Source of the DNA: Geoalkalibacter halelectricus
GTDB lineage: Bacteria > Desulfobacterota > Desulfuromonadia > Desulfuromonadales > Geoalkalibacteraceae
Assembly: GCF_025263685.1 (NCBI RefSeq)
Contig: NZ_CP092109.1
Location: forward strand, 1,985,001-2,049,000
Length of the DNA stretch: 64,000 bases
Direction of reading: 5' to 3'
Of this stretch, positions 4,926-25,784 are shown one piece after another. The notes below the pieces were generated by a model. That model was given only the letters and a program-made list of their open reading frames with translations, was not told where the DNA came from and ran no database searches. The translations under genes were made by a program, and so were the position numbers. Each line of letters opens with the position of its first letter. Within the stretch, counting starts at the first letter, position 1.

Positions 4926-5549
4926 TTAGCTCCGCTGCCTGTTTCTCTCCTGAAGACGCGCGCGGGTCATGCGTTCGCGCAGACCACCTTCCTGTAAAAA
5001 GGCCGTTTCAAGCTGGGACAATTGCCGATCCAGCAAATAATTGGCCTGGTGGATCAGGCAGATGATGATGTTGGCCACCACCTCGGGGGGCCGCGTTTCG
5101 ATAAACGGCTTATAGGTCGCATAGGACTCAGGGGACGGATGCGACTCAGGGAGTGTTCGCTTCCCATCCGTCCCATTTGTCCTGTCTGTCCCAGGTTTTT
5201 GCCGTCCCAATCGGCGGACATAGACGGCTTCCTTGCTGTCCTTTTCCCACCGGGGCTTTCCGCGCACCCTGAGAAAATCACAGTAATCCGCCAGAAGTTC
5301 CTCAAGACTGGCGCGCGCCACATTGGTCAGCTTGATCTCAGTCTCCTTGGAAGTACCTGAAGCCTGACTGCCTTCGATGATGTTCTGCTTGCCGGAACGC
5401 GCCGCCTGCACCATCTGGTCATGAGTGCGACTGCGGCGGTCCACGTAGCGATTGCAAAACCAGACGGTGGCATCGTAAACGATTTCCGCCTTGCGATAGG
5501 AGAGTAGATTGCGGTATCCGCCGTGGGGTGGAATAAACCCTTGAGACAT
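4926..5549 (-). CDS. Four-helix-bundle suffix-domain protein
   Basis: This 207-residue protein has the S23-like four-helix-bundle fold: the block VDRRSRTHDQMVQAARSG with QNIIEGSQASGTSKETEIK (about 37-72) and the C-terminal helix NIIICLIHQANYLLDRQL (about 161-178). The function is unknown; relatives are found in many phyla. A low-complexity insert (GTDRTNGTDGKR, about 118-129) splits the fold and comes from G-rich repeated DNA. The start codon lies inside the ACATG target duplication of the Tn7-like element, so the gene has lost its natural ribosome binding site, which now sits at the other end of the transposon, near glmS. No good Shine-Dalgarno remains upstream. The coding frame is intact. 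Confidence 0.8.
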   Translation of the reverse strand: MSQGFIPPHGGYRNLLSYRKAEIVYDATVWFCNRYVDRRSRTHDQMVQAARSGKQNIIEGSQASGTSKETEIKLTNVARASLEELLADYCDFLRVRGKPRWEKDSKEAVYVRRLGRQKPGTDRTNGTDGKRTLPESHPSPESYATYKPFIETRPPEVVANIIICLIHQANYLLDRQLSQLETAFLQEGGLRERMTRARLQERNRQRS

Positions 5550-5550
5550 G
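5546..5550. repeat. Left target-site duplication (ACATG)
   Basis: The five bases just outside the left end of the Tn7-like element are ACATG, identical to the five just outside the right end. A five-base duplication is standard for Tn7-type elements. It contains the start codon of the minus-strand gene at 4926-5549. Confidence 0.95.
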
Positions 5551-5698
5551 TGTAAACTTACAAAAAAGTATCATCCTTTCGGACGTATAACTTATTGATT
5601 ATTCATAGACCACTTCATCGCACTTTTGATAAAGTATCATACTTTCTTTCGCGCATTCCCCTTTCTACAAAGAAATCTGTGACAAAAAAGTATCATAC
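5551..5698. repeat. Tn7-like left end with three spaced TnsB-type sites
   Basis: Three similar 19-20 base sites lie at 5557-5576, 5624-5642 and 5680-5698, all in the same direction and each containing AAAGTATCAT preceded by an A-rich or T/G-rich stretch. The first is next to the terminal TGTAAAC. Three separated sites on the left and tandem sites on the right is the arrangement known for Tn7. Binding by TnsB is inferred. The sites and the spacers between them are AT-rich and contain no gene. Confidence 0.88.
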
Positions 5699-5757
5699 AA
5701 GCTTGAAATTAAACAAAATTTCAATGTGGCGATATTGTCAATGATTCTTAGATGCCC

Positions 5758-6615
5758 TCATCGGCTCCATTCATAGTAGCCACCTCTTCGAAGGAAGCGA
5801 CCTGCATCTACCTGGATGGCTGCCAAGGCAGCCCGCATTCCCACCTTTGAGATTGGGGGGCTATAATTGTAGCGCCCTCCGGTGTTATCAAAAAATCTAC
5901 CGTCAGCAGTGACCATCAAATAACTTTCAGTCATCTCGGCATTAGACTCTACAACCATTGTAGTGTATTCAGCCATCCTGCGGTGCTTAGCAACATACAA
6001 ATCAAATTCGGCCGTTGAAATCGCGAAGGTTTCTCTGGAATTTACCTCGGATATGTTGAGTGCCTGGAAGATTTTCCATCGATCAGGGCGAGTCTCCATG
6101 ATGAATTCAGACAAATCGTCATCTTTTGTCCACCATGAAACAGTCGTATTTATTTTTAAATGCATTCCGAAATTTTTGACAGCTTTGGCCATTTCGATGT
6201 AATGCTCATGGTAAACAGGCGCCCCGTGAACTGAACGGCCAGAACTAAAATTGTTTTCGGATGACAAACTATCGACACTCATCCCAACCCAATCAAGTAC
6301 TTGGGCATACTGTTTGAGCCACTTGTCACTTAATTGACTGATATTTGTAACGACACAAGTTGTCAGTCCCTTTGAATGCGCGTGGCGAACAACATTATAT
6401 AGATGCGGGTACAGGAGGGGTTCACCGCCGACAAAGGTAATCTTTTCAACTCCTAAATCGCGGCATTCGTTGATGATTCGCTCCGCCTCACGCTGCGGCA
6501 TTGTTTGGGCATGACTGGGAGGGGCGAAGCAGAACTTGCAGCACATATTGCACGCAGTTGTCAGAAACAGATTGACGGACGGAACAACAGTATTGACGAC
6601 ATCTTGATGGCCCAT
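5758..6615 (-). CDS. Prokaryotic viperin (antiviral radical SAM enzyme)
   Basis: This 285-residue protein is a radical SAM enzyme of the viperin family. Viperins convert CTP, and in bacteria also UTP or GTP, to 3'-deoxy-3',4'-didehydro nucleotides that stop viral RNA synthesis. The 4Fe-4S motif CNMCCKFC (C22, C26, C29) is followed by KITFVGGEPLLYPH, NTTVSW, DRWKIFQALNI and the viperin-type ending FLRRGGYYEWSR, which resembles the end of human viperin. The length is typical. A strong AAGGAGG site precedes the ATG. It is the last cargo gene before the left end, 83 bases after a large putative nuclease gene, and is probably transcribed with it. The family call is firm; which nucleotide is used cannot be read from the sequence. 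Confidence 0.92.
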   Translation of the reverse strand: MGHQDVVNTVVPSVNLFLTTACNMCCKFCFAPPSHAQTMPQREAERIINECRDLGVEKITFVGGEPLLYPHLYNVVRHAHSKGLTTCVVTNISQLSDKWLKQYAQVLDWVGMSVDSLSSENNFSSGRSVHGAPVYHEHYIEMAKAVKNFGMHLKINTTVSWWTKDDDLSEFIMETRPDRWKIFQALNISEVNSRETFAISTAEFDLYVAKHRRMAEYTTMVVESNAEMTESYLMVTADGRFFDNTGGRYNYSPPISKVGMRAALAAIQVDAGRFLRRGGYYEWSR

Positions 6616-6698
6616 GAGAAACCTCCTTGCTCGGGTGATGGTTTGCGCATGGCAAGCACCGAGCCGAAGGAAGAATTTCAGGATCTTTAAGTTGCCCT

Positions 6699-8936
6699 CT
6701 AAACTGCGTAGTTCGCTATAACCGCTCCGTCAATTGTCAGGGGTTCCAGTTTATCTGGGCCCAGCACTGGCTCTGGAATCAAGTGCCTCCAAACAGCTCC
6801 GGACTGAATAGCATCAGCCACGTCTTCAGCGCTAGCCTCTCTTAAAACATCTTTCATGTTGTCACGATTCATTATTTTGTCAAGATCTTCTTCCATGGAA
6901 AGTTTAGACATTAATTCCCTCAATGCGTTCCAGTCTTCATCAGAAGCATGTCCCGTCACGACTCTGTCGTATAACTCTGGGGACAGGGCTTCAGACGCAA
7001 TCTCTTTCATCTTGAGCCAGGCCTTAAGAATCGGTGTTGTCCCTTGCAATAATAATTGCAGCTCGAATAGACTAACTTTTCGGAAACCATTAAAAAATTT
7101 ATGATCATATTCGAATGAGGATGAAACAATCAGAGATACAATTCTTAATCTGTCAAACGTATCGCTAATCTCAAGCCAATCGCAAACTATTGGATAATTG
7201 TCCTTGAGAGCGACAATCGCACGTTCCAATTGAATTCCGGCTTTTTCCAGTTGAGGTAAGTGATTGTGAATCTCCTTGATGGAGGATCTTAAATACGTCA
7301 ACTTCGCTTCGATTAAAAACAAAACGCCATCCTTGTATGCGATGACATCGATTTCAGAAAGAAGACCTTCTTTGTTTTTCAGCTTTTGAGAATCTATTGC
7401 CCTCCAGCCACCAATCCTGAAAATCTCGGCAATTTTATTTTCTTGAAAATCTGAATATTCTTTGTTGCCTTGCCAACTCTGCCGGACAATAGCATTAAAA
7501 AGAACCGTTTTGATATCTGAATGAAAATAACGCATCAAAAGCAGGTAGCCAGCAGGTGTTTTTAAAAATGCCTGGCCATCAATCCTGGTCGGGAATTGGT
7601 CAAGGTTCGCACTCCCCAACTCAAAAATCAACTTCGTATCTTCAAGTGACAATTCTATTTGGTTCCTTCTATTGATTTCTGAAATTTGTTGAATATTTCT
7701 TATTTCTAAAGGGGCGCGAGGAAGAGCATTCATAATTGCATTAGCGAAATCAACTCCCGCTCGCTTCTGTTCCGCCATCGCATGTTGGTACTGTGCCTCA
7801 TAACAACCACTAAACCTATTAAGTATGACAAGGGCCGCCATGAGGTCAATCTGAGCATCTTTGATGGAAATTTTATCAGCAATCCCCAGTTCATCCCCTA
7901 AAAATCGAGTTCCGAAGTAAATTCGCCGAACAACATCTCTTGATATCTCATTTGGTGAGTCTGCAGCCAAATTTTCAGAGGATTTTAAATCCTCAAGATT
8001 GAACCCAGAATAGTAATCATGAAAGATGCGATACTTGGATTCCGTTTGTTCCCAAGCAACTCTCCACGCGTTTCCTCGCGGACGAACAACAGGAATTTCT
8101 TTAGAAAAATCAACAACCCAATCATGCCACTGGAACATCTGGAGAAGGTATTTGGCTTGGGCGCGCTGATCAAATTCCCTGAACAGGGGAAATAGTTCTG
8201 GCTCTTGCCCGTTGTGCAAAGCCTTGATCTGGAGAAACAATTCTTTGTGGATTTGTTTCTGATCAGGCCACTTACGTGAGTTTTCTTTGTCCCCTTTGTA
8301 TTTTTCATTCAGGAGATCCTCAAGCAGTGACAACAAGGTCAGTCGCTTCGCCATGAAGGCCGCTTCTGTCGAAGTTGCGAAATATACCTGCTCAGAAAGG
8401 AGTACGAATGCGCAAAGGATCTCAGCGATACTCGCTTCTTTGATCTCCCAAGTAAATTTCTTTAGCGAAGCATCCATCTTAGCCTGTAGATCTCGAAAGA
8501 ACTCTGAGCCAGCCAATAACTCTCTCGACTGTTCATTGTCCAATGCTTTAAGAAATGGACGATAAGATTCCCAGTGACAATCTCGAAGAAACCCACCATA
8601 ACACCTAAGACTTTTCAGCATTAGTTCCGGGGCGTTTTCAAATCCTGTCGCGACAAATGTTTCACAAACCTTTTCCTGACGGAAGTATGCCCCCCAGTAA
8701 TCTGGAGCATTAGGGGTCAGGCTGACGATTTGCCATCCATACATTGAAGGCAAATCAGATTGCCAGAATTCTTTTAAAAACTTTCTGTCTTTGAAAAATG
8801 GCGAAATCTTATGTTTTTTGGCGCCCGAGAAGGTCATCCGGACTGCTAAATCAAAATCAACATCGAACAATTCACCGATCAACTTTATCTTCTGCTTAGG
8901 GGTTTTAGCCCCTTTAATTTTTTCCGTCATTTCCAT
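6699..8936 (-). CDS. Large protein with a C-terminal PD-(D/E)XK nuclease-like domain
   Basis: This 745-residue protein is not one I recognise. Residues 1-450 look helical and show no named motif. The region 480-580 has the pattern of a PD-(D/E)XK nuclease core: a helix with E499, then D530 (SEIDVIAYKD) and LIEAK (E543, K545), followed by a helix with QLEKAGIQLERA. This resembles the NERD/Mrr-like class. The last 90 residues are acidic and helical. There are no membrane spans or signal peptide. It lies between the viperin gene (83 bases downstream) and the small nuclease-like gene after jetD (69 bases upstream), all on the same strand. A defence role is inferred from place and fold. The ribosome binding site is weak; an in-frame ATG six bases later is an alternative start. 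Confidence 0.75.
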   Translation of the reverse strand: MEMTEKIKGAKTPKQKIKLIGELFDVDFDLAVRMTFSGAKKHKISPFFKDRKFLKEFWQSDLPSMYGWQIVSLTPNAPDYWGAYFRQEKVCETFVATGFENAPELMLKSLRCYGGFLRDCHWESYRPFLKALDNEQSRELLAGSEFFRDLQAKMDASLKKFTWEIKEASIAEILCAFVLLSEQVYFATSTEAAFMAKRLTLLSLLEDLLNEKYKGDKENSRKWPDQKQIHKELFLQIKALHNGQEPELFPLFREFDQRAQAKYLLQMFQWHDWVVDFSKEIPVVRPRGNAWRVAWEQTESKYRIFHDYYSGFNLEDLKSSENLAADSPNEISRDVVRRIYFGTRFLGDELGIADKISIKDAQIDLMAALVILNRFSGCYEAQYQHAMAEQKRAGVDFANAIMNALPRAPLEIRNIQQISEINRRNQIELSLEDTKLIFELGSANLDQFPTRIDGQAFLKTPAGYLLLMRYFHSDIKTVLFNAIVRQSWQGNKEYSDFQENKIAEIFRIGGWRAIDSQKLKNKEGLLSEIDVIAYKDGVLFLIEAKLTYLRSSIKEIHNHLPQLEKAGIQLERAIVALKDNYPIVCDWLEISDTFDRLRIVSLIVSSSFEYDHKFFNGFRKVSLFELQLLLQGTTPILKAWLKMKEIASEALSPELYDRVVTGHASDEDWNALRELMSKLSMEEDLDKIMNRDNMKDVLREASAEDVADAIQSGAVWRHLIPEPVLGPDKLEPLTIDGAVIANYAV

Positions 8937-9005
8937 GTATATCTATACCTAAAAAAGTTTTATTAAGATTGGGGATTTTTGAAACGCATTCAGCAGAAAA
9001 ACAAT

Positions 9006-9545
9006 TCAAACAGGGAAACAACAAATCAAAATTTCTCCTTTATTTCCATTTGCGAGAGGGACTCCAACTGTTGTGCAGCAATCCGTGGTAGATATAGTAA
9101 TTCCTGTCTTATTGGAAATTCGTTCAATATATTCTTCCCATCTTCGATCCCCGAAAGGAACTGGAAAAAGAGTGAAAGCCACAATCCCTACATCCTCGCA
9201 GTCTCTTAATTTATCAATGTCATCGATAATGCTTTGGATGTTTTTTGTGACTGGCCGTGTTTTACTATTTACTCCAGTGAGGCGCCAATTAGTGTTAGGA
9301 GTTTTCAGTTCTAATACATAGCGTAAGTTATCTATTTGAAATGCAATGTCAGCTCTATTGAAATTTTTTGATCCACAAATAGGAGCTTCAAGCTGAAGAC
9401 CAATTGCACCTTCAGTTTCAGCAATCGCAGCCAGTTCCATTTTGAGCCAGCCTTCAAATTTAGCCCTTTGGGAAAGTGCAATATTTAAAACCTGAGGATG
9501 CGCCTCCAACACGGTCTTTATCCAATTACGTACTTGTATATGCAT
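9006..9545 (-). CDS. Small PD-(D/E)XK-like protein coupled to jetD
   Basis: This 179-residue protein has a recognisable restriction-endonuclease-like core: E37 in a helix (WLKMELAAI), D66 (NRADIAFQ) and E79-L-K81 (YVLELKTPN), with strands between. The second half (NIQSIIDDIDKLRDC, VGIVAFTLFPVPFGD) fits the rest of such a fold. Its ATG lies three bases past the jetD stop and its AGAGG ribosome binding site overlaps that stop, so it is translationally coupled to the Wadjet operon. Standard type I Wadjet has four genes; this would be a fifth. The nuclease call rests on the motif only, and the partner could instead be the large protein downstream. Confidence 0.72.
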   Translation of the reverse strand: MHIQVRNWIKTVLEAHPQVLNIALSQRAKFEGWLKMELAAIAETEGAIGLQLEAPICGSKNFNRADIAFQIDNLRYVLELKTPNTNWRLTGVNSKTRPVTKNIQSIIDDIDKLRDCEDVGIVAFTLFPVPFGDRRWEEYIERISNKTGITISTTDCCTTVGVPLANGNKGEILICCFPV

Positions 9546-9548
9546 TGC

Positions 9549-10754
9549 TTACCTCTTACGGTCATCAAGCCGCAAAGCCGAGATAAGTTGCATGTAGGGA
9601 ACCCTCTCCTGCTCGATTCGTGTTCCTTCACAGTCACCGCCAGGAAACAGCCTCTGATATGCGGCCAACTCAGCATCTGTCAGATTTGTCAATGAATCTG
9701 TTCGACGTGTATCGCTGGATTCCTGAACCGCTAGATTTTTGTTTTGATCGAGATCTCTGCAATTCATCAAAATCGATTCAACATGCGGAAGTTTGCCACG
9801 CAACATCGACAGGATTCCATATCCATGTGTATCGATATCCCCCCAATAGACAACGCGTTTATCTTTGAGCCATTCAGCTTCGGCAAGCTCCCCGATACCG
9901 TAGCCAAGCCCGAAGACAACGATACTACCTTTGACCATTGGGAAGGCCAGACCGTTGACTTTGTTCTCTGTTATGAAGACCGTTTGGACTCCTGGAATGG
10001 GAGTCCTGGCAAAGTCAGTTGCAGGTACGCTTACGTCCCTGTAATCAGAATCCGGCAAAATTGAGTCATCGAGGATTCTGAACCTGACGAATGGTTCGTC
10101 ATAAAGGAAGCCATAGCGCCGCTCGAAACCAGCACGGCTTAAGCCGGTCACACAATCCTCATATGCTTCTCTCGGAAGGCACTGTGTTAATGCCTCTGAC
10201 AGGATCGCACGCTTGCCCTCGAAGAATTTCGTATCAATCCCAGGCAGAGCAAGTTGCCTCAGGTAGATTCCCGGCCTGGGATTGGCCAGAAGATAGTCAC
10301 ATACACGCAGCACCTTCTCCCAATCCTGCATGTGAGGAAGTACTTTCATGGGATTGGACTTCATCCAGGCGGCAACCGAAGGGTTTTGTTCCTCCGAATA
10401 CCTTAGGACCGTGAGGTACTCATCCAGGTCATTCTGCTTACCGATGAACCGGGCAAGGTCATACGGAGAGTCAAACCGGATATCTGACGGGAGGTTTTGT
10501 CTGCCGAGTTTGCGATGATTAACCTGAGAAAACTCAACGGCATATCCAAAGCCTCGTTTATCCTTCGACGATGCATTGAGCTCCGACACCCATCGCTGAA
10601 TTTCGGCAAACGAATCAATCACATGCTGGCCGCCGGCTTTTTTGAAGCGCAATCGCAGTGGAAACTCTGGATCGCTCAAAGCGGCACCACGTAACACATC
10701 ACCCCGGTTCCATGCACGATTGGCAAAATCCTTGATATCGTTGACGCTGATCAT
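9549..10754 (-). CDS. jetD: Wadjet JetD, Toprim nuclease subunit
   Basis: This 401-residue protein is the nuclease subunit of the Wadjet complex, which recognises closed circular DNA by loop extrusion and cuts plasmids. The N-terminal half matches DUF3322 (FPLRLRFKKAG near residue 30). The C-terminal half is the DUF2220/Toprim domain, with the glutamate motif VFITENKVNGLAFP (about 261-274) and the aspartate motif VVYWGDIDTHGYGIL (about 302-316). The ATG overlaps the jetC stop (ATGA). The length is normal for the family and no key residue seems lost. A small nuclease-like gene follows after three bases. Confidence 0.93.
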   Translation of the reverse strand: MISVNDIKDFANRAWNRGDVLRGAALSDPEFPLRLRFKKAGGQHVIDSFAEIQRWVSELNASSKDKRGFGYAVEFSQVNHRKLGRQNLPSDIRFDSPYDLARFIGKQNDLDEYLTVLRYSEEQNPSVAAWMKSNPMKVLPHMQDWEKVLRVCDYLLANPRPGIYLRQLALPGIDTKFFEGKRAILSEALTQCLPREAYEDCVTGLSRAGFERRYGFLYDEPFVRFRILDDSILPDSDYRDVSVPATDFARTPIPGVQTVFITENKVNGLAFPMVKGSIVVFGLGYGIGELAEAEWLKDKRVVYWGDIDTHGYGILSMLRGKLPHVESILMNCRDLDQNKNLAVQESSDTRRTDSLTNLTDAELAAYQRLFPGGDCEGTRIEQERVPYMQLISALRLDDRKR

Positions 10755-13700
10755 GAAACCTTCCGGACCAGTTCGCTGTCGAGACGCTCTTGCTGGAGTT
10801 CCTCAATTGTCATGTTGCGAAGGACAGAACAGGACCCTTCAGCATTGTTGTGAACAAAGTTAACGGAGCTGATGTATTTCTCGATAACGTTGATTTTCTG
10901 TAACGGTGTCAGGACGAGGAGCTGCAAATTGAGCATTCCAAACAACTCCATGCCAAAACGGGCGCTCTCCTCAGATCCGCGCCCAAAAGCCTCGTCGACA
11001 ATCACGAAGCGGAACGAACGCTCTCGATCTGCACCGAACTGATAAGCCAGCGCTGAGGCGAGAATCGTGTAGGCCAGTTTTTCCTTCTGACCACCCGAAC
11101 GGCCACTGGAGCCTTCATATACACACTTGACGGCGCCTGTCTCGCGGAACTTTTCATGGGCCATAAAATCGAACCACTGGCGCACATCAGAGACCTTGTT
11201 GCGCCAATCCCTATCAATAGCGGAAAAATCACCGCCCCGATTCTTCAGTCGCTCGACAATCTGTTTCAACTGAAGGAATTTTGCTTCGGTATACAGGGAT
11301 CTCTCATCGAGCGTGTCAGCAAAACAAGCTTTCAGGTCCGCCTGGAACTGGCGAATTTCAGGATCAGCAACCTGCTTGGGAGCGATTTCGATGTATGTTC
11401 CTTTGACATAGTCGATTTTGCCCAGAGACCGATTGATTTGTTCTAAACGCGTCTCGATGTTTTTCTTTTCCCGATCAAGTGACTGCTCCAGGTTAACAAG
11501 CCCCTGTATGGTATGTTCCCGCAGCAACTCGCGGAAACGTTCCCGATGCTTAGGTAGTCCTTCCGTCTCTATTTCATGCAAGATCTCAAGCAACTCTGGG
11601 ACAGCTTTCACATCTATGTCGATATCCTGGGCCTCGACTGGAAATGTATCCCGATATCTCGTGATTGCTTTGTGAAGGCGATTGCGACATTCATCGGCGG
11701 TGGTTACCGTCGATCGCCTGAGATCGTCCATGCGCTTCCAAATGTCACCAGCGATTGACATCGCAGTGTTGATATTTACCGATCTGCTCCCTTCATCCCA
11801 ACGTTTGACCTCATGAGATATCTCTTTGAACAGCGTCTCGCGTTCACCTTCGGGAACGGCATCAAGATGCTGCTGCATCTGCGGCAGGGTTTCTTCTCTG
11901 CGCATCTTGATGGTTGTTTGATTCTCATTGATTTTGTCCCTTACTTCGTCTCGTGCTTCTTGAATCTCGTCGAGACGCTTGTTAGTCGCGAACAGCTCCT
12001 CCCGCAGCTGTTTGAGCCGATCGGAACTCTCTTCGATGCGACGTTTTTCTTCGTTCAGCTGATCGATTTCCCGAGCATCGGCCTGCCAATCGATGCTTTT
12101 GTAATTCGGTGTATCAGCGATTTTCGTTGCTACACCACGATTTTTCATCAGGTCTTCTTCTTCAGATTTGACCTTTGCGATGTGCGCTTCAAGTTGCGAC
12201 AGCTTTTCTCTAAAGTGGGCTAGCATTTCTTCCAGCGTATCAATTTTCTTCTGGTTGTTCCACCCGAGAACAAAGCTCGTGCGGTCACCGATGTGACGTC
12301 GGTCATCCTTTTCGTGACGATCGCCTCTGGATTTGAAAAGGCCGCTCTTCATAACCGCATCCGGTTGATTGCGAAACTCCTCAACGGTTTCACAGCAGGC
12401 CATGTCAAAGCGCTTTTCCAATCGATCCTCAAGCCACCATTTGAATTCTGTGCCTGGTTTAAGATTCAGCTTGCCAACTAATGAATTATCAACAAGTTTG
12501 TTGCTCGCGACCGAATGAATTTTTGGCACCTTGAAGAACACGACCCGGCCTGCCAGATGGGTCTTATCGACATAAATACTAACCTCGCGGTACAGATCCT
12601 CCGGAACCAGAATGCTCAGGGCAAAATTATGCAGGATTCTTTCGATCGCCCCCTCCCAGGCCGAATCCCCTTCCTTGACTTCCAACAGTTCACCGACGAA
12701 GGGCAGGCGTTCGATATCGGCTCCGACCACCTCTGCAATGCCAAGACGAATCGAGAGATTCTTGTGGGGGATACTGCTGCGACGTTTCCTCAGGGACGAT
12801 AATTCCTCTTCCGTCTCACGGATTTTTTCATCCCGCAACTTCTCAGCCCTTACCCGAAGATCAATTCTTGTCTCTTCGGCTTCATGCTTCATTTTATCGA
12901 GGTCATCGACAATTCGAGATGCCCGGGCATTTGCTTCGACAAAAGAATTTTCATCCTGCGGAGGACTAATGCCGAGAGCGATACATGCCTTGGAAAACTC
13001 AGCGAATGCCAATTTCTTATGCTGCTTGGTTTGTGAAAGTCGCTCGACGTCAGCCTCAATGACGGTGATTCTGCCGCCACCGGCATCATTGATTGAATTC
13101 CGAATATCCTCGGCCTTCTTTCTCAGGCTGGAGGATTCGTTCAAAATCCCGGTCAGCTTTTCCTCCGCACGAGCATTTTCGGCTTCTAGTAATTCGATCC
13201 GTTTCTGGATCAGATCGATATTGAGAGAAGCGTAGTAAGGACGAATCCCTTCACGTAACCGCATCCGCTGTGCGGCCGTTTCAAGGTAGCCCTGGAGTTT
13301 GGTCGCCTCCTCATTCACCGGTTTCAGGAGTTCGATTTTCTTCTGCGCCTTTTCTACAGCCTCGTGGGCCTCAGTCAGGCTATCAAACCCGTCAATCACG
13401 TCTTGAATAACTTCCGGAGTTTTCCCTTCATCGAGCATGAAGTCCCGAATAAACGTGGTCAAATTGGGCACCTGCTTCATCGACATAGTGTGACAAAAAA
13501 GACTGAGTGCCTGATCACCCGGAATACCCATCAGGCGAGAAAAATGTTTTGAATATTTCTCAAAACTGTCATGTTGATGAATTGAACGATCAGGATCGAA
13601 TCGGCGTTTCAGCTCGGCAATTGTATCAAACCCCGTAAAGTGGGACTCGATCGTCAATGCTTTCTCAGCAACAATGTAAAGGCGGTGTGGCGACTCACCT

Positions 13701-14122
13701 TCATTACGAATCCAGAGTACCTGGGCAAGCGTAACCTCTTCGCGCAGATTTTTATTCCGGAATACCGCAAGTATTGTTGAATAAGTGTCGATCCCGCGAA
13801 GAAAAACAGGCTTGGCCTTCTTGGTCACTTCATCGATGTTGTTGGAGAATTGACCACGAACATACGAATAGACTGATCGTTCACGAGCGGCCTCATCCGC
13901 AGCCTTGTTGTAAGCAACTCGACGTGGTGGCACCAGCAGGGTTTGAAGCGCATCCCCGGCAGATGACTTGCCTGACCCGATATCCCCGGTCATCAGGGCT
14001 GTTTCGCCGTTGGCGACGATCGTCCAGACCCGTTTGTCAAACGTTCCCCAGTTGAAAATCTCGGCATGGTCGAGCCTGAAGCCGTCGTTTGGCCCCTGAA
14101 TATCAAGCGATTGCTGCTGCAT
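10751..14122 (-). CDS. jetC: Wadjet JetC, MukB-like SMC ATPase
   Basis: This 1,123-residue protein is the SMC-type motor of Wadjet. The head domain has Walker A GDIGSGKSS near residue 47, long coiled coils follow (about 240-500 and 640-900) around a hinge, and the second head half carries the signature GRSGGQKEKLAY and Walker B FRFVIVDEAFGRG. I chose the ATG at 14122 (MQQQSLDIQ) because GGAGGGG stands ten bases upstream; the open frame extends 17 codons further but overlaps jetB. It overlaps jetB by about 20 bases and jetD by four. With JetA and JetB it forms the condensin-like complex. The family call is firm. Confidence 0.93.
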   Translation of the reverse strand: MQQQSLDIQGPNDGFRLDHAEIFNWGTFDKRVWTIVANGETALMTGDIGSGKSSAGDALQTLLVPPRRVAYNKAADEAARERSVYSYVRGQFSNNIDEVTKKAKPVFLRGIDTYSTILAVFRNKNLREEVTLAQVLWIRNEGESPHRLYIVAEKALTIESHFTGFDTIAELKRRFDPDRSIHQHDSFEKYSKHFSRLMGIPGDQALSLFCHTMSMKQVPNLTTFIRDFMLDEGKTPEVIQDVIDGFDSLTEAHEAVEKAQKKIELLKPVNEEATKLQGYLETAAQRMRLREGIRPYYASLNIDLIQKRIELLEAENARAEEKLTGILNESSSLRKKAEDIRNSINDAGGGRITVIEADVERLSQTKQHKKLAFAEFSKACIALGISPPQDENSFVEANARASRIVDDLDKMKHEAEETRIDLRVRAEKLRDEKIRETEEELSSLRKRRSSIPHKNLSIRLGIAEVVGADIERLPFVGELLEVKEGDSAWEGAIERILHNFALSILVPEDLYREVSIYVDKTHLAGRVVFFKVPKIHSVASNKLVDNSLVGKLNLKPGTEFKWWLEDRLEKRFDMACCETVEEFRNQPDAVMKSGLFKSRGDRHEKDDRRHIGDRTSFVLGWNNQKKIDTLEEMLAHFREKLSQLEAHIAKVKSEEEDLMKNRGVATKIADTPNYKSIDWQADAREIDQLNEEKRRIEESSDRLKQLREELFATNKRLDEIQEARDEVRDKINENQTTIKMRREETLPQMQQHLDAVPEGERETLFKEISHEVKRWDEGSRSVNINTAMSIAGDIWKRMDDLRRSTVTTADECRNRLHKAITRYRDTFPVEAQDIDIDVKAVPELLEILHEIETEGLPKHRERFRELLREHTIQGLVNLEQSLDREKKNIETRLEQINRSLGKIDYVKGTYIEIAPKQVADPEIRQFQADLKACFADTLDERSLYTEAKFLQLKQIVERLKNRGGDFSAIDRDWRNKVSDVRQWFDFMAHEKFRETGAVKCVYEGSSGRSGGQKEKLAYTILASALAYQFGADRERSFRFVIVDEAFGRGSEESARFGMELFGMLNLQLLVLTPLQKINVIEKYISSVNFVHNNAEGSCSVLRNMTIEELQQERLDSELVRKVS

Positions 14123-14684
14123 AGTTCCGGTACCCCTCCAGAAGGTTGGCAAGGTCAGACAAAGCATCGGCATTGAACGCTGCCTTGATAATGCGCCGGA
14201 CCTCGTAGGTCGTCTCTTCGGCTTTTTTCAGCTCGTCCAGAAAGCCCATCTCGGCAACTCTCGCAATATTCCGTCGAATATCGTCATGGAGTTTGGCCTC
14301 GTTGGTTTTTTCCGGGATAAACGCTTTCACCATATCGAAGATGTCCTCTTCGGAAATAATCAATCGCGGCTCAGAGGTCGAGGCATCGTGTTCTGCCAGA
14401 CGCTTGCGCAAAAGCACACAAATCAAACTGGTTAAGAAACCGAGAGGCCGCTTGGGGATGAGCCTTGGCAAGGGATCAACCTCATCCTCATTGGGGACCT
14501 GCTTCAGGAAGGTAAATCCTTCTGATTCATCAAGGAACACCTCTAAACCAACCTGCGCGAAATGAGAATTGATCGCCGCGTAAGCGCCAAGAATGGTTGT
14601 CCATTGCTTGGGGTGCTTGTCCTTGTACACCACCCCTTTCATTAAGGCCACAAGGGCATGAGAAATGTCGTTACGCCTTTCCAT
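14103..14684 (-). CDS. jetB: Wadjet JetB, MukE/MksE-like subunit
   Basis: This 193-residue protein is the DUF4194 (JetB/MksE-like) kite subunit that binds the kleisin JetA and the SMC JetC. Winged-helix segments are visible at about 85-105 (FLTSLICVLLRKRLAEH) and 115-160 (ISEEDIFDMVKAFIP, then NIARVAEMGFLDEL). The length is normal. It starts 11 bases after the jetA stop and overlaps the jetC start. Confidence 0.9.
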   Translation of the reverse strand: MERRNDISHALVALMKGVVYKDKHPKQWTTILGAYAAINSHFAQVGLEVFLDESEGFTFLKQVPNEDEVDPLPRLIPKRPLGFLTSLICVLLRKRLAEHDASTSEPRLIISEEDIFDMVKAFIPEKTNEAKLHDDIRRNIARVAEMGFLDELKKAEETTYEVRRIIKAAFNADALSDLANLLEGYRNYAAAIA

Positions 14685-14695
14685 ATCTTCCCCTC

Positions 14696-16126
14696 CTAGC
14701 GGGTAAAAATGAGCCTCGGCACCCGCAGCTTTCGCTCACGACCGTCTACGAAAATACTGATAATGTCCCTGGTTTCATCATTGACCGCAACCCTCTCACT
14801 ATCATGGCCAACCTCGAAATAGGCGATGATCTCGCCGACCCCTTTTGTAACGGGATAGCGATTGATCACCTCTGGCAAGGTGATTTGATCATAATCGCGA
14901 AGAAGCTGGTTGACCCTGTCGCTCAACAACCCGTAATCGATGTCTTCCCTTGAGAAGAGTGCGGAGACATCGATTTCGACCACTCCCTCCTCGATCATGA
15001 CCCCGGAGAAATCTTCGGGTGGATTGGCTTTGTGGAGGGTTCTGGCCATGGTCAGATCCAGTTCAGGCTTGATGTCATCAATCGAGAAGTTGAAGTCAGC
15101 AGGCGGATTGTTTTTAAGTTCGAGTGATTTCTGTTCAATGTCGCGGATTATTTCCATGATCCGCTTGTTTTCAAGATGTACGCGATCATCGATATAGCGG
15201 CGTAACTGATCAGCCAGCCGATTGGTGGTTTGATACACAGAACGGCCAGCATCCAGAAGGGCATATTTTGCATCGGGAAGAAAAGCATTTTTGGCCAGAT
15301 CTTCAAGAGCTTCAAGTACAAGGATACCTTCCAGTAATTCTGTTAGCTCCTGCTGCCTGGCCGGGGTCATCAAAAACTCCCAAAAGGCACGAAAGCTCCG
15401 GCCTTGATCTGAAGCGGTAATGTTTTCTCTCCGTTCAAACACTCCCTCAAGCACATCACCTTTAGGGGCATCCGTCGTTACAAAGAGATGCCGAGCCTCT
15501 CTATCAAGGTCCCGAACGTTCTGCTCAACCTGGCGAAAATCGGCAACCAGCCTTCGAGCCGTTTCTTCTGCTTCAATGAAACGCTCCCTGATCTGCGTCT
15601 CAGAAAACGGTTGATATCCCCCCTTATTGATGAGATCGATTTCGCGATCAATTTCATCCCTCGTTCTCTCCAGCTCTTGAATCCGTCTTTCTGGACTGTC
15701 GGATGCCTTTGATCTAATCTCACGAAGCAGGTTGAATACAGTAAGCAAACGAGATTCTGTCCCAACGAAAGCCTTCGGTTTCAGATCTGCGATCCATTCC
15801 ATCGCTTTAGCCACCGATGGAGTCAGATCGTAGACAGGCTCATCACCACGTTCGGGATAGCGCTTGGAAAGATAGGAGTTATTGTCACACCACAGAACCA
15901 GATACTGTTTGGCTGACATTTTATGAGAATCTTCGCCATAGATTTCTCGCAAGCGAAAAAGTTCATCTTCCAGGAGTGACAGGATTTCTTCGTGAGGGAT
16001 TGAACGCCGATTCGGCTCAATGAATACCTGATGGAAAAACGAGAGGAGCAGCGGAGCACTGTCGGAACTGATGATCCGCAGTGCGGGATTATTAACTTTC
16101 AGAGATTTTATATATTCGTAGTCCAA
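14696..16126 (-). CDS. jetA: Wadjet JetA, kleisin-like subunit (DUF3375)
   Basis: This 476-residue protein is the DUF3375 kleisin-like subunit of type I Wadjet and the first gene of jetABCD. The N-terminus (DYEYIKSLKVNNPALRI, SDSAPLLLSFFHQVF) is characteristic. A coiled coil runs at about 135-230, and the C-terminal part (residues about 385-476) holds a winged-helix-like segment. The start is TTG, with a GGCGGGGGC stretch upstream; family members begin M-D-Y at the same place, which supports this choice. A 180-base gap with a promoter-like sequence separates it from the DUF6338/proline-rich pair, so Wadjet is probably its own transcript. Confidence 0.92.
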   Translation of the reverse strand: MDYEYIKSLKVNNPALRIISSDSAPLLLSFFHQVFIEPNRRSIPHEEILSLLEDELFRLREIYGEDSHKMSAKQYLVLWCDNNSYLSKRYPERGDEPVYDLTPSVAKAMEWIADLKPKAFVGTESRLLTVFNLLREIRSKASDSPERRIQELERTRDEIDREIDLINKGGYQPFSETQIRERFIEAEETARRLVADFRQVEQNVRDLDREARHLFVTTDAPKGDVLEGVFERRENITASDQGRSFRAFWEFLMTPARQQELTELLEGILVLEALEDLAKNAFLPDAKYALLDAGRSVYQTTNRLADQLRRYIDDRVHLENKRIMEIIRDIEQKSLELKNNPPADFNFSIDDIKPELDLTMARTLHKANPPEDFSGVMIEEGVVEIDVSALFSREDIDYGLLSDRVNQLLRDYDQITLPEVINRYPVTKGVGEIIAYFEVGHDSERVAVNDETRDIISIFVDGRERKLRVPRLIFTR

Positions 16127-16186
16127 TACAATGCCCCCGCCAAAACATAGCCTATGCCTAAAATATATTGAATCTACTCATAGATA

Positions 16187-16215
16187 ACAGTATGCAGCGA
16201 CAGAATAAGTCGCAA
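16187..16215 (-). promoter_or_regulatory. Candidate sigma-70 promoter of jetABCD
   Basis: On the minus strand TTGCGA (16215-16210), a 17-base spacer and TACTGT (16192-16187) form a fair promoter about 60 bases before the jetA start. An inverted repeat GCGAC...GTCGC (16197-16213) lies across the -35 box and spacer and could be an operator. It is the only gap over 150 bases between cargo genes in the 5.7-28 kb stretch, which supports a separate Wadjet promoter. Not tested. Confidence 0.4.
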
Positions 16216-16306
16216 TAGCTCTATTGGGGATTTGACAAATATGGCACTCAATCCTTGGAACCCTCCCATTGAACCTTTTAGACAAAATCGCCAGTCACCT
16301 AGGGCT

Positions 16307-16477
16307 TCAGCTGTTTTTTAATTTTTTTGGCGTCGGAGGTGGTGGCGGAGAAGGCACTGCTGGTGGTTTTCCTGGCGTACTTGGTTGATATCCACCTTTT
16401 CTGTCACCATCTCCAGGTGACGGGGCTGGCCGTGGTGATGTCAGGGGCTTAAGTGGAGAGGGGAGGGTAGGGCTCAT
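16307..16477 (-). CDS. Small proline-rich protein overlapping the DUF6338 gene
   Basis: This 56-residue protein is rich in proline, with the motif KGGYQPSTPGKPP and a basic end (PPPPPTPKKLKNS). It has no membrane span or fold motif. The ATG at 16477 has a strong AAGAGGTG site at good spacing and lies inside the last 29 bases of the DUF6338 gene in another frame, so it is translationally coupled to it. The open frame extends further upstream, but with no ribosome binding site there. Small proteins with a GYQP-like motif beside DUF6338 genes are something I recall from other genomes but could not check. The function is unknown. Confidence 0.6.
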   Translation of the reverse strand: MSPTLPSPLKPLTSPRPAPSPGDGDRKGGYQPSTPGKPPAVPSPPPPPTPKKLKNS

Positions 16478-17153
16478 TTTTTTCACCTCTTGGGAAAAGC
16501 GATTCACCAATTGGAATAATGCGCTGGTCGGTCGTTGGTTCATTTACTGCCGCGATTGAATACAAAGTCTTCGATTTGATAAAAATGTACTGATAGGGAG
16601 TAGAAATGTATTGACCAGATTCTGTGTTATATAATGCAGGTTCTTCTAGGACGAGGTCCCTTTCCTCCGAAGAAGCAGCGACATCTGCGACTTTCAACTT
16701 GCCAGCATATACCTCACCACTTTCCAGCCCTATAACAACCCAATGATTTGGAACATAAGACCTTACAAACTGGTCCCATGCACAAGGGAAGGCAGAGCTT
16801 GATGAACATTTTGACAACAGCTTTGCCCCCCAGGCAGCAAGCAATCCTGCAATACCTCCACCGAGAAGATGTCCACTGTAAGGAATAAAAATAATTGCAA
16901 AATTAGACGTTTGAGAAGAAAGTGTTTCATAGGTAGATGGAATAATATGTACAGGAGAAGGCCAATTAAAAAAAGATGAAGCCAAAGCATACAAGGTGAC
17001 GCCAACAACACTAAAACCGACCAACCTTAGAACGCCCTGCCATTCTTTCTCCCTCCAGTCGACCCCAACTAAATCTCGATATATTTTATCGCCGATTAGG
17101 CCAGGAAAAATGGCAATAACGATGATGAGTAATCCAACTATCGTATCTGGCAT
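16449..17153 (-). CDS. DUF6338-family membrane protein
   Basis: This 234-residue protein has an N-terminal membrane span (about 3-20, TIVGLLIIVIAIFPGLIGD), a second at about 42-62 (LRLVGFSVVGVTLYALASS) and a third at about 85-115 (FAIIFIPYSGHLLGGGIAGLLAAW). A soluble C-terminal domain follows with NHWVVIGLESGEVYAGKL and RDLVLEEPALYN. This is the DUF6338 pattern. It starts 22 bases after the Rad50-like gene with a GGAGAG site, so it belongs to the same transcript. The function is unknown. A membrane protein at the end of a nuclease operon could be an effector or an anchor, but that is a guess. Confidence 0.75.
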   Translation of the reverse strand: MPDTIVGLLIIVIAIFPGLIGDKIYRDLVGVDWREKEWQGVLRLVGFSVVGVTLYALASSFFNWPSPVHIIPSTYETLSSQTSNFAIIFIPYSGHLLGGGIAGLLAAWGAKLLSKCSSSSAFPCAWDQFVRSYVPNHWVVIGLESGEVYAGKLKVADVAASSEERDLVLEEPALYNTESGQYISTPYQYIFIKSKTLYSIAAVNEPTTDQRIIPIGESLFPRGEKNEPYPPLST

Positions 17154-17175
17154 GCGCTCTCCGGTCTCTACAGAC

Positions 17176-19614
17176 TTAATCCAGCGTCAATATCTGATCG
17201 GTAATTTCAGTAAACGCCACATCATGACTGATCAGGAACAGTTGATCATACCAGTGCTCAGTGACCTCTTCCTTGCCGACATCGATGGCCCGGAAAGCAT
17301 GGGCCAGATTTTCACGGCGGGTGACATCGAGGTTTGAGGTCGGCTCGTCAAAAAAGGCGATGCGGGCACCAATTGTCTGCAACATCGCTAAACGCAGCGC
17401 AACAACAGCGCTCATTGTCTGCCCACCGGAAAGCTGGTCATCGGCTCGTTCCCGCAGCTCACCATCTACCATGTCACGCAGCACAATCTGGTAATTCTCT
17501 CCCCAGGCTAATTCCTCGTCAACTTCCGAGATAATTCGGTAAATCCGGTTGGCTCTATGGCTGATTTCCTCACGGAACCGTTCGGACAAGTACCCCGAGA
17601 CATTCCGAAACACCCGATTGCGCAGGAACTTGACTAACTCGTCCTTTTCCTTGTAGCCCTTGATCTGCTCCTTTTTGTCGGCAATATCCTTTTCGATCTG
17701 ACTGAGCTTATCGACTTCGGCGGACAGTCTTGAAACATCGGCCGTCAAGCCTTTGACCTTCTGCCCGAGAGCATTGACACCGCCCCAAAGATCATTCTTC
17801 TGTTGGCGCAGTTTCTCGTGCTCGGCGGCGTCATACTCCTTGCACAACTTACGGGAGGTCTCTTCCTTCTCGACCAGACCTTCCTGCAGCTGCTTGAGAT
17901 GCTTTTCAAACTTATCCAGGTCGGTCCGTCGCTGATCCAGCTCAGCAGCCTGCTGCTGATTGGCCACAAAACGGTCACGAGCTTCCTGGTGTCGAGCCTT
18001 TTCCTGTTCTTCCTTCTCAATATCAGCCTGTAACCGATTGTAGGTTTCAAGCAAACTTTGTTTCTCATCCAGTTGTTGTTGTACGGCCGCTTGTTCCTTT
18101 TGCAGTTCGCCCAGTCCTTCGGCCTTAAGCTCGTTTGCATTACGGCGGTTATCCAAGCTTTTCATCTGGGCATCCAGCCCTTCGAGCTTGACGGCCACCG
18201 CCTTGATCTGATCACTGGCCTGGCTTGCCGATTTCTCTTCCTGTTCGAGCCTTTGAACTTGCTCATGGAGACGCTGACGCTCCTGATCCAGTTCGGAAAA
18301 CTTGGCAGTGAACACATCCCCAGGAGGCCTTTCGGCAATATTGAGACAAGGCTCCTGGAAGAAAGGGCAGACCCCCTCGGCAAGCTTCTCACTTCCCTCC
18401 TGCAACCCTGCCCGCCGCCCTTCGAGTTGGCCGAGCTGTTTGCGCACCCATTCAAGGTTCACACGGATTTCCGGCAACCGATCAGATAGTGCTTTTTGCT
18501 CGGCATCAAGCGATAGAGCCTTTCGGCTATCCGCCAACGTCTTCTCTTCAGCAGCAAGTTCTTTTCGGGTTTGTTCGATCGACTGCGACTCAACTTTGAA
18601 GCGCTCTCCAAGCTTTCCGACCTGGGTCTTATGTTCAGCAGCCTCCTGTTCGAGCTTACGCTGAACCTTGACCTGTTCCCGCAGCTCGCTCAGCCGAGTC
18701 TCGGCCTGCTCGTAGGCCTTTTTGCCCGGAGTTGTTTCCTCGATGACTTTGTGGGCCTTTTTCGCTTCGCCAACGAGCAGCTTCTGTTTACCGATCATCT
18801 CGTTGCCGTTCGTGATCCGCTCCTTGAGCGCTTCGATCTCCTTTTCAAGCTCCTTGAGATCCTTCTCCCGCCTATCTATAGAGAGCAGAAGCAATTCCAA
18901 ATCTTTTAGCTGTTTCTGCTGTGCAGCTAGTTCGGTCTCGGCTTGTTCAAGATCCTTCTTTGCTGTTTTGTGTTCATCTTTCTTCGCCGGGAGTTCAGCC
19001 ACCTGGTCCTGAAGGGGACCGATCGCACTTTCGAGAGAATCCACCTTAGCCTTGATAGCACTGGCAAGCACCTTGGTCTCGTTGAAGGTCTTGCGCCAGG
19101 TGTCGATACCGAGAATCTCGTCAAACTTGTCGCGACGCTTGGTTGGCTGCTTGATGACAAACGGGCCAAGGAATTCATTCTGGAAAGGACCGATCACGAG
19201 TTCGAACTGTTCGGCGAGCGACCGTCCCGAATTCAGTCCGAGCAATTCCTTCAACCGTGCCTCGGTCTCTTTGCCGTCCTTATGTTCCTCGACCTCGAAT
19301 GCGCCCCCGGACTCTTCGGCCAACAGCCATTTGGAGGGCGTACCGACTGTTCGACTGACTTTAAAGTGCTCACCATCAGCCACCTCAAAGACCACGGCGA
19401 TCTCACCCCTTTTGGCGCCGATTGAGATGAACCGCTCAACGTTCCCGACGAAGCTCTGCGCATCGACGCCAAACATGGCGTAACCGATGGCTTCAAATAT
19501 TGTGCTCTTACCGACGCCATTCGGACCGGAGAGGACGTTGATGCCGGGGGAGAAAGTCAGCTCCGTGTCGCGGTGCGACTTGATGTTCTTGAGATGGATG
19601 GAAAGGATCTGCAT
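17176..19614 (-). CDS. Rad50/SbcC-like ATPase with zinc hook
   Basis: This 812-residue SMC-type ATPase pairs with the Mre11-like nuclease gene before it, giving a complex that processes DNA ends or hairpins. It has Walker A GPNGVGKST (about 32-40), coiled-coil arms (about 190-400 and 450-650), a zinc-hook-like CPFFQEPC near residue 417, the signature LSGGQTMSAVVALRL, and Walker B/D-loop IAFFDEPTSNLD. I chose the ATG at 19614, which overlaps the Mre11 stop (TGATG) with a GGAGG seven bases upstream; a TTG three bases earlier also fits. It is shorter than E. coli SbcC and unlike a housekeeping copy in context: it sits in a mobile defence island next to SIR2-HerA. Confidence 0.88.
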   Translation of the reverse strand: MQILSIHLKNIKSHRDTELTFSPGINVLSGPNGVGKSTIFEAIGYAMFGVDAQSFVGNVERFISIGAKRGEIAVVFEVADGEHFKVSRTVGTPSKWLLAEESGGAFEVEEHKDGKETEARLKELLGLNSGRSLAEQFELVIGPFQNEFLGPFVIKQPTKRRDKFDEILGIDTWRKTFNETKVLASAIKAKVDSLESAIGPLQDQVAELPAKKDEHKTAKKDLEQAETELAAQQKQLKDLELLLLSIDRREKDLKELEKEIEALKERITNGNEMIGKQKLLVGEAKKAHKVIEETTPGKKAYEQAETRLSELREQVKVQRKLEQEAAEHKTQVGKLGERFKVESQSIEQTRKELAAEEKTLADSRKALSLDAEQKALSDRLPEIRVNLEWVRKQLGQLEGRRAGLQEGSEKLAEGVCPFFQEPCLNIAERPPGDVFTAKFSELDQERQRLHEQVQRLEQEEKSASQASDQIKAVAVKLEGLDAQMKSLDNRRNANELKAEGLGELQKEQAAVQQQLDEKQSLLETYNRLQADIEKEEQEKARHQEARDRFVANQQQAAELDQRRTDLDKFEKHLKQLQEGLVEKEETSRKLCKEYDAAEHEKLRQQKNDLWGGVNALGQKVKGLTADVSRLSAEVDKLSQIEKDIADKKEQIKGYKEKDELVKFLRNRVFRNVSGYLSERFREEISHRANRIYRIISEVDEELAWGENYQIVLRDMVDGELRERADDQLSGGQTMSAVVALRLAMLQTIGARIAFFDEPTSNLDVTRRENLAHAFRAIDVGKEEVTEHWYDQLFLISHDVAFTEITDQILTLD

Positions 19615-20861
19615 CAATGCCCCTCCGTATCCAGAAGGGCGAGCAGTTCATCGCCGTCGACATCGCCTTTTTGTACGGCATTCTTCAGAGCGATGGAGAG
19701 CCGGATCAATTCATCTTCACGTCCCTGGTAGTCGCTGCCGGTTTTGATCAAATCACGCAGGACCTCTTTTTCGATCTCCTCCAGGCTTTTCTTGACACCA
19801 TCTCCCTCCTCGGCACTGCTGACCAGTGAGAGGTGGTTTTTGATCTCGACATGCAGAGGATCGACCAACTCTTCAAGAACCGCCTTCAGTCGTTCACGAC
19901 CGAGTTCGAAAGGATGAAAGCCAACGCGACCGACCAGCTTCAGTTCTAGCAGAGGTTGACGCTCATCACCCGAGCTGTCGACCTTGGCGACAACCTGCTC
20001 ACGAAACATGTCGAGTGCCTGTTCGACATTTTCGGCGCCGCTCAAATCAATCGCCTCGACAAACATCGGACGCGGGGAGGTCTTCCTGAATGCCGGGTGG
20101 AATTCACCATTTTCAAAGGTTACGAAGTAGTAGCCTTTGTCGTATTTCTCCTCACCGAAATTGACCCGTTCCGGTGAGCCGGGATTGAATGCGAATGGCT
20201 TCCCCTCCGGAGTTTCGATGACGTAGGGCTTGTGGCCGTGACCAAGAGCGACATACCCGAATTTCTCGGCCAGCGGGTATGCCTCTTCAAGTTTCATGTT
20301 GCCGATCTCGACCGGGGAGTATTTCCAGATGCCGACATGGAAAAGCAGCAGATTGTTTTCGGTGGTGACCGCTTCACAGATACGTTCAACATGACTGCCC
20401 GCCTGGGCGCCAATATAGCCAAGACCATAGATATTGACACCGCCGATCTCGATATGACCTCCCATGCCGGTTTCTTCGTCGAAAGGATCGAAACGGTAGC
20501 CACCGTCCTCCGTACGGGTCGGGCGCAGCAATTTGATGTATCCCATCTGCGACAGCGCTTCCATCCACGAGATACTGTCACGGCGGTGAATCCAGTCGTG
20601 GTTGCCTTCGATTGCGATGCAGGGAATGCCTGCATCCTTTAAGGGCTGGAGAGTTTCGATGGTTTTGGCAAAAGTTTTCGGCAGGATCTGGCCGACGTGG
20701 AAGAGGTCGCCGCCGATAATGACCGCATCAATCTTTTCGTCAACTGCTTCATTGACGATGCCAGAGAGGCAAGTAAAGAAATCGGCGTAACGTTCCACTT
20801 CGCCGAGAGAGTTACGGTAGGTTTTGCCAAGGTGGATGTCCGATACGTGTACGAAATACAT
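19614..20861 (-). CDS. Mre11/SbcD-like metallophosphoesterase
   Basis: This 415-residue nuclease is the partner of the Rad50-like ATPase. The metal-binding motifs are in order: SDIHLG (residues 7-12), GGDLFH (about 50-55), GNHDW (about 86-90), and GHGHKP (about 207-212). The C-terminal part (about 300-415), where Mre11 proteins bind Rad50, is helical and acidic. The gene overlaps the Rad50-like gene by one base and starts 39 bases after the KTSC gene. Complexes of this type cut DNA ends, hairpins or protein-blocked ends. A defence role here is inferred from the cargo position. Confidence 0.88.
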   Translation of the reverse strand: MYFVHVSDIHLGKTYRNSLGEVERYADFFTCLSGIVNEAVDEKIDAVIIGGDLFHVGQILPKTFAKTIETLQPLKDAGIPCIAIEGNHDWIHRRDSISWMEALSQMGYIKLLRPTRTEDGGYRFDPFDEETGMGGHIEIGGVNIYGLGYIGAQAGSHVERICEAVTTENNLLLFHVGIWKYSPVEIGNMKLEEAYPLAEKFGYVALGHGHKPYVIETPEGKPFAFNPGSPERVNFGEEKYDKGYYFVTFENGEFHPAFRKTSPRPMFVEAIDLSGAENVEQALDMFREQVVAKVDSSGDERQPLLELKLVGRVGFHPFELGRERLKAVLEELVDPLHVEIKNHLSLVSSAEEGDGVKKSLEEIEKEVLRDLIKTGSDYQGREDELIRLSIALKNAVQKGDVDGDELLALLDTEGH

Positions 20862-20900
20862 TAATCACCTATCAAAAAAACATTGACAATAAAAAGGATT

Positions 20901-21110
20901 TTAAACTTTTGTGTATCGGTACACGCCTTTAATTTTCGCGTTTAAGTATTTGCCAACTGAATCAGCATCTCTTAATTCAATAAAAACATTTTCTGGCACA
21001 TCAAAGTATTGGTATAATGCACCACCTTTAAATTCAACCTGAAGAGTGGAGCTATCCTCATCATAACCAACTGCTTCTACATTGCTTGAATCTACACCTA
21101 TCATTTCCAT
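20901..21110 (-). CDS. KTSC-domain protein
   Basis: This 69-residue protein is a single KTSC domain, named after a segment found at the C-terminus of some lysyl-tRNA synthetases. Visible features are IGVDSSNVEAVGYDED, LQVEFKGGALYQYFDVPE and VGKYLNAKIKGVYRY. It has a very good AGGAGG site. It lies 13 bases after herA and 39 before the Mre11-like gene. The KTSC function is unknown; in mobile elements it is often found beside nucleases and helicases. Confidence 0.85.
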   Translation of the reverse strand: MEMIGVDSSNVEAVGYDEDSSTLQVEFKGGALYQYFDVPENVFIELRDADSVGKYLNAKIKGVYRYTKV

Positions 21111-21123
21111 AAATTCCTCCTAA

Positions 21124-25748: not shown

Positions 25749-25784
25749 AGCACCCACCTCCCATCAATGTATCATGCAACAGAA

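Follow-up and report, generated by a model that had tools for sequence, protein, structure and literature searches.

The closest described systems to the locus considered here are type I Wadjet, composed of JetABCD, and defence operons that host an extra restriction gene. In the latter category, brxU lies outside the canonical BREX gene set and is inserted between brxC and pglX in pEFER, and its product is a type IV enzyme sufficient alone for phage defence, as described in the excerpted text of Picton et al. 2021 (PMC8565348). Wadjet and viperin are both already known as cargo of Tn7-like transposons, as follows from Benler et al. 2021 (PMC8649781, in excerpt), whose Table 1 gives JetD of Wadjet a count of 34 and viperin a count of 1. 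As for Wadjet itself, a fifth nuclease gene is not mentioned in the titles and abstract openings listed by the literature searches.

In the window, that is, the whole stretch of 64,000 nucleotides from Geoalkalibacter halelectricus that was analysed (contig NZ_CP092109.1, positions 1,985,001 to 2,049,000), a type I Wadjet of four intact genes is followed on the same strand by a gene for a small nuclease-like protein, P0001, and by two further genes:

14696..16126, minus strand: jetA, 476 aa, DUF3375, TTG start (profile matches)
14103..14684, minus strand: jetB, 193 aa, DUF4194 (profile matches)
10751..14173, minus strand: jetC, 1140 aa, SMC-like ATPase, true start possibly further downstream (profile matches)
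9549..10754, minus strand: jetD, 401 aa, DUF3322 and JetD_C (profile matches)
9552..9557, minus strand: ribosome-binding-site-like AAGAGG in the final two jetD codons, abutting the stop (direct sequence reading)
9006..9545, minus strand: nuclease-like gene (P0001), 179 aa (open reading frame, 32-member alignment, AlphaFold2 model)
6699..8936, minus strand: 745-aa protein with a viperin-associated NERD match (open reading frame and PADLOC)
5758..6615, minus strand: prokaryotic viperin, radical SAM, 285 aa (NF038283)

All four window Jet proteins match both Pfam and PADLOC, the best PADLOC models being matched nearly end to end, and JetD, whose gene is intact, gives E-values of 3.5e-47 for DUF3322 and 1e-44 for JetD_C in the profile search. 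Viperin scores 267.9 bits with NF038283 against a cut-off of 180, and residues 478-635 of the 745-aa protein match the PADLOC family 'Viperin-associated NERD' (4e-29). The first-pass annotation had placed a 179-residue reading frame three bases after jetD, with a ribosome-binding site at the jetD end; both observations hold, since direct reading gives 3 nt between the jetD stop and the P0001 start and locates AAGAGG as listed. The NERD gene begins 69 bp after the nuclease gene, and the NERD and viperin genes (5758-8936) immediately continue the Wadjet-nuclease run without a change of strand. The Wadjet-nuclease-NERD-viperin run may be a single transcript. A promoter scan returned fewer sites than shuffled sequences (6 versus 14.3) and a terminator scan returned more (17 versus 11.3); neither was used as evidence.

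Base composition sets the nuclease gene apart from its upstream neighbours. Its GC content of 39.3% is below that of all 604 overlapping 540-base windows of jetABCD (45.9-54.4%), and its GC3 is 0.29 versus 0.51-0.59 in jetABCD. A composition outside the jetABCD range suggests a separate origin, and the nuclease gene most likely arrived separately from jetABCD. The entire run is carried by a larger element:

5551..39580, no strand: complete Tn7-like transposon carrying Wadjet, nuclease and viperin-NERD (inverted ends, duplication, transposition genes)
5546..5550, no strand: target duplication ACATG, left copy
39581..39585, no strand: target duplication ACATG, right copy, 20 bp past the glmS stop (glmS by reading)

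The transposon is 34,030 bases long, and its inverted ends, at 5551 and 39580, are matched at 25 of 28 positions. TnsA, the TniB-type ATPase and TnsD/TniQ were confirmed by Pfam, and a 702-aa TnsB-like gene was matched weakly. An open reading frame of 539 aa (31714-33333) overlaps the TnsD/TniQ gene; it has no Pfam match and is possibly a second target selector. Other cargo includes an SbcC/SbcD-like pair, HerA-SIR2 and a type I restriction-modification system (hsdM, hsdS and SbcD assigned by reading). In the first of these, at 16449-20861, an SbcC-like ATPase (813 aa) and the SbcD-like protein (415 aa) are followed by a 234-aa DUF6338 protein.

Sequence profiles say little about P0001. The protein has no match in NCBIfam, PADLOC or PDB sequences, and its only two matches in Pfam, at E 0.15 and 0.28, are not convincing. 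With 0 PADLOC families it matches none of the JetA, B, C and D models, and the GmrSD_N and GmrSD_C domains are absent (Pfam, E up to 1); the PADLOC search for the nuclease family covered the window protein. The family alignment likewise yields weak and scattered matches to PDB, Pfam (best 25 of 33 matching families) and NCBIfam, with best E-values of 0.32, 0.0014 and 0.0013, respectively. The description of P0001 as PD-(D/E)XK-like in the first-pass annotation thus lacks sequence-profile support, but it is backed by the structural model and by conservation. The AlphaFold2 model (mean pLDDT 95.8, pTM 0.91) comprises helix 31-44, strands 48-55, 64-71 and 74-81, helix 99-114 and strand 119-130, and hence displays the alpha-beta-beta-beta-alpha-beta order of the PD-(D/E)XK core.

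In the 32-member alignment, K29, F30, E31, E53, D66, K81, T82, T85, N102, D109, L113 and F127 are invariant, whereas E79 (at least 90%), R97, P98 and T100 are nearly so; an extra conserved stretch, T96-N102, follows the catalytic strand. According to the model, E31 belongs to the first core helix, D66 to the second strand and E79-x-K81 to the end of the third, so that the conserved D66 and E79-x-K81 occupy adjacent strands (64-71 and 74-81). At the level of secondary structure, this placement corresponds to the PD-(D/E)XK arrangement. Model and alignment conservation together support a PD-(D/E)XK nuclease core with a predicted active site of E31, D66, E79 and K81. We infer that P0001 is very probably an active nuclease, with DNA as its substrate.

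Fold searches agree with a nuclease core, although they are not strong evidence on their own. In the PDB, the top restriction-fold match is SwaI (Z 7.7, rmsd 4.3, 121 aligned residues), accompanied by EcoRV (Z 7.2, 4.7, 121), AF1548 (Z 6.8, 3.6, 104), OkrAI (Z 6.7, 3.5, 130), the fdxN-element excision factor (Z 6.3), a XisH family protein (6.0) and Hjc (5.7); all these values lie below 8, the caution line of the tool, in a band that unrelated folds also reach. Restriction-fold proteins are prominent in the top rows, with methyltransferases and Tdp2 lower in the same list. Foldseek gave best E-values of 2.3e-3 in the PDB and 1.2e-3 in BFVD, none below 1e-3, and at E above 1e-3 five of the seven informatively named rows among the first 15 in BFVD are PD-(D/E)XK proteins or restriction enzymes.

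To collect homologs, 395 genomes of the phylum, the source genome included, were searched, which returned two true relatives of P0001 (48% and 44% identity) and one spurious match; L005, a weak match (E 7e-4) that on reading is a CheA-like protein, was dropped. An alignment of three sequences was then run against genome contigs of 84,980 species, yielding 37 loci. Two of the resulting 39 loci, L004 and L029, are the same contig, leaving 38 distinct ones, and both the genome-contig and the viral-contig scans need an exact short peptide match, so relatives are undercounted there. The 31 aligned relatives come from bacteria and archaea and are 31-52% identical to P0001, which argues that its reading frame is not due to chance. 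The corresponding alignment (32 rows including P0001) leaves out L028, L035, L038, L042, L043 and L044, which are partial or broken, as well as the genome-search loci L003 and L004. Another sample of 395 genomes had matches in three, one of them the L022 genome used as its centre, and contributed two further relatives. No relatives were found in plasmids and phages by tblastn or in three viral-contig scans. In the tree (34 rows, with 9 of 30 inner branches open) phyla are mixed, and P0001 stands beside a Planctomycetota protein with support of 98/93. The nuclease family is thus spread over bacteria and archaea and lacks a convincing counterpart in the searched copies of Pfam and NCBIfam.

The gene neighbourhoods of the relatives were scanned for families protein by protein at 17 of the 39 loci, picked partly for their defence-like look. 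In L026 the nuclease gene lies within a brxA-brxB-brxC-nuclease-pglX operon (L026:4964-12651, pglX running off the fetched stretch), 7 bases after brxC and 29 before pglX. Elsewhere it follows hsdR and a YgjP peptidase (L022), is found near hsdM (L023), or precedes genes for GmrSD (L020), AIPR (L017), nSTAND3 proteins (L016 and L013, the latter scoring 24 bits, below its cut-off of 27.2) or, 401 bases away, an HSDR_N protein (L019); in L015 a DNA adenine methylase is encoded two genes on. Overall, defence neighbours are present at 9 of the 17 loci, or at 10 when L021, preceded by an IrrE-type peptidase gene, is included. The eight loci with no clear defence gene among the scanned neighbours are L003, L008, L009, L010, L011, L012, L014 and L021: heparinase- and enolase-type proteins flank L010, a dehydrogenase L012 and a HAD protein L009, and nothing recognisable was found among the scanned neighbours of L003, L008, L011 and L014.

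For a comparison less biased by the choice of loci, open reading frames of at least 120 aa within 5 kb of the nuclease were set against control regions, at most 10 kb long, that came from different contigs or other parts of these genomes; seven control contigs were too short, so 13 of 20 genomes were used. At E 1e-10, 116 PADLOC families were matched among 77 near proteins versus 10 among 75 control proteins, which is a strong contrast and not a rate, because these are counts of overlapping profile families and not of proteins (the HsdM of L023 matches 52 at E 0.001). Among the best 25 of the 116 near-set families are BrxC, REase_I, MTase_I, PycC, E1-E2, AbiU, capP, SduA and PDC-S45; the control set includes MTase_II, mad3, mad8 and three others. 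The family is thus repeatedly located in or beside defence operons, with some members behind metabolic genes or in cassette-like units. A compact three-gene unit was also observed at L079:6493-8327, where the nuclease gene overlaps a gene for 187 aa by 4 bases and a gene for 205 aa follows; neither of the two has a Pfam match, and the surroundings are apparently housekeeping.

Cassette-like features concern the short members of the family. Non-coding flanks are common to L004/L029 (deltaproteobacterium), L033 (Dehalococcoidia) and L035 (Atribacteria), and L034 (DPANN) and L043 (Archaeoglobaceae) have a short downstream stretch in common; such conserved flanks were seen in the short subfamily only. 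The L033 sequence contains a 48-nt repeat with AACGTTA, or a variant of it, at its end; copies start at 2228, 2915, 4217 and 4896 (span 2228-4943), and the nuclease gene lies between the first two. These repeats fit the consensus of integron attC sites; folding gives z values of -2.8 and -1.0 to two of the copies in L033, and one of -2.6 to L035. The attC-like repeats around the L033 copy are suggestive of cassette-borne short family members. The nuclease copy at L035:8085-8591 is interrupted by a stop codon in frame, immediately upstream of the conserved RAKFEGW motif.

Is the nuclease tied to Wadjet? The first-pass annotation had presented P0001 as a fifth Wadjet gene. The tight placement behind jetD and the nuclease core stand, but the partnership does not: tblastn detects JetABCD at 0 of the 39 loci with a relative (with varying flanks and some short contigs), and the later-found relatives L081 and L082 have no Wadjet, viperin or NERD neighbours. 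Across the whole of the 39 carrier genomes, JetD_C turns up in 2, in neither case within the fetched nuclease loci. Conversely, JetD_C is found in 61 of 271 genomes of the class, whereas a single-sequence search of 277 class genomes, which include those 61, detected the nuclease only in the genome of the window, leaving 60 others with JetD and without nuclease. The nuclease-family profile had no match at 29 jetD loci of other genomes or at the second one of this genome, these 30 being the best-scoring of 67 jetD rows (3' flanks usually about 1.5 kb, the shortest 103 bases in L047), nor did it match at L098-L111, jetD loci taken from the phylum sample and in part from genomes of the class set; a JetD relative at 1e-20 is present in 14 of the 395 genomes of that sample. 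A long JetD frame at L101, checked for a fused nuclease, has an N-terminal extension that lies in another frame over jetC. The second type I Wadjet of the same genome (L096:1924-8495) has four genes, jetA-D in order, 37-42% identical to those of the window; 92 bases after its jetD comes a gene on the opposite strand, and there is no nuclease. A conserved Wadjet component was therefore rejected. With homologs in the examined genomes found mainly away from Wadjet, the fifth-gene reading fails, and the tempting five-gene Wadjet has to be corrected as unsupported; the coupling to jetD is real but local.

We regard as probable that P0001 is a stand-alone PD-(D/E)XK restriction-type nuclease, probably type IV-like, which is coupled to jetD and provides a complementary defence layer without being a fifth Wadjet subunit. 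In the examined genomes, relatives are found next to other genes, often those of other defence systems, so the nuclease looks like an independent add-on. A lineage-specific fifth subunit or back-up, which JetABC or JetD would bring in once loops have been extruded to cut plasmids that escape JetD, would show the same 3-nt gap and ribosome-binding-site-like sequence, and a single instance is compatible with recent recruitment; nevertheless, we consider it unlikely given relatives without JetABCD, jetD loci without the nuclease and the deviating base composition. Somewhat less improbable, though still rather unlikely, is an abortive-infection effector, a silent nuclease that would cut host DNA or RNA on infection with no discrimination between self and non-self. 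Genes for nSTAND3, AIPR and IrrE-type peptidases, which belong to abortive or toxin-like systems, do accompany some relatives, but a constant sensor or antitoxin partner is missing: all-against-all comparison of up to four neighbours per side at 37 loci produced no cluster larger than three proteins, and the nSTAND3 proteins at L013 and L016 show hardly any similarity to each other (best E 0.011).

An orphan type II restriction enzyme, its protecting methylase lost or supplied in trans, would agree with the type II enzymes SwaI and EcoRV being the solved folds of highest Z, with OkrAI close, and with the adenine methylase near L015. Still, this reading is decidedly unlikely, as no cognate methylase gene lies beside P0001 (in the window it is flanked by jetD and the NERD gene), the hsdM-like gene of the element, assigned by reading, is 17 kb away, and no methylase is present among the scanned neighbours at 14 of 17 loci. 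A highly improbable arrangement would make P0001 a partner of the downstream NERD-viperin pair and not of Wadjet; strand and spacing favour this, but by tblastn none of the 39 loci has a relative of the 745-aa NERD protein, and L011 supplies the sole viperin-like match, a radical SAM protein of TIGR04053 encoded on the opposite strand. The least probable scenario is a homing-like, selfish nuclease without a part in defence, which propagates by inserting behind genes or in cassettes: relatives directly behind unrelated genes, flanks shared across phyla and the attC-like setting of L033 are consistent with it, whereas the defence-neighbourhood signal above control and the restriction of conserved flanks to the short subfamily argue against it. 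Finally, a very unlikely variant is that the family supplies plug-in cutters for DNA-translocating defence machines (Wadjet here, BREX in L026, type I restriction-modification in L022), cutting DNA that the machine has flagged.

Under the preferred reading of a stand-alone restriction-type nuclease, P0001 would be a single-domain, metal-dependent PD-(D/E)XK enzyme working alone on incoming DNA, its action probably resembling that of type IV (methylase-free) restriction enzymes, in line with the absence of a methylase gene next to it. Its expression would proceed via translational coupling to jetD because the gene landed, or was selected, right behind the last Wadjet gene, and the product would contribute a further, complementary defence layer, comparable to BrxU within the BREX operon. 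Such an enzyme would be expected to favour foreign or modified DNA and to act independently of JetABCD. Should it prove active, P0001 would count as a small restriction enzyme that works alone; the results point to an uncharacterised nuclease family of bacteria and archaea that recurs in or beside defence operons.

With SwaI, EcoRV, OkrAI, AF1548, XisH and Hjc, P0001 shares the order of core elements and the catalytic residue pattern. Unlike these solved PD-(D/E)XK proteins, its family shows no convincing profile similarity and has the extra T96-N102 stretch of its own. Type I Wadjet JetABCD is the operon neighbour of P0001 in the window; unlike Wadjet components, P0001 has no counterpart at any of the other Wadjet loci examined, and its relatives lie away from Wadjet. 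The element has Wadjet JetD and viperin in common with the Tn7-like defence cargo in the excerpted part of Benler et al. 2021 (PMC8649781), where a nuclease family like that of P0001 is not mentioned. BrxU is a GmrSD (DUF262/DUF1524) protein, whereas P0001 is a small PD-(D/E)XK-type protein with no GmrSD match. Nevertheless, in both cases an extra gene, for P0001 a putative restriction gene, resides inside the operon of another system, and the L026 relative occupies the very brxC-pglX slot of brxU; BrxU acts independently, according to the excerpted text of Picton et al. 2021 (PMC8565348), and P0001 presumably does as well. If active, P0001 would thus be, like BrxU, an independent restriction gene using the operon of another system.
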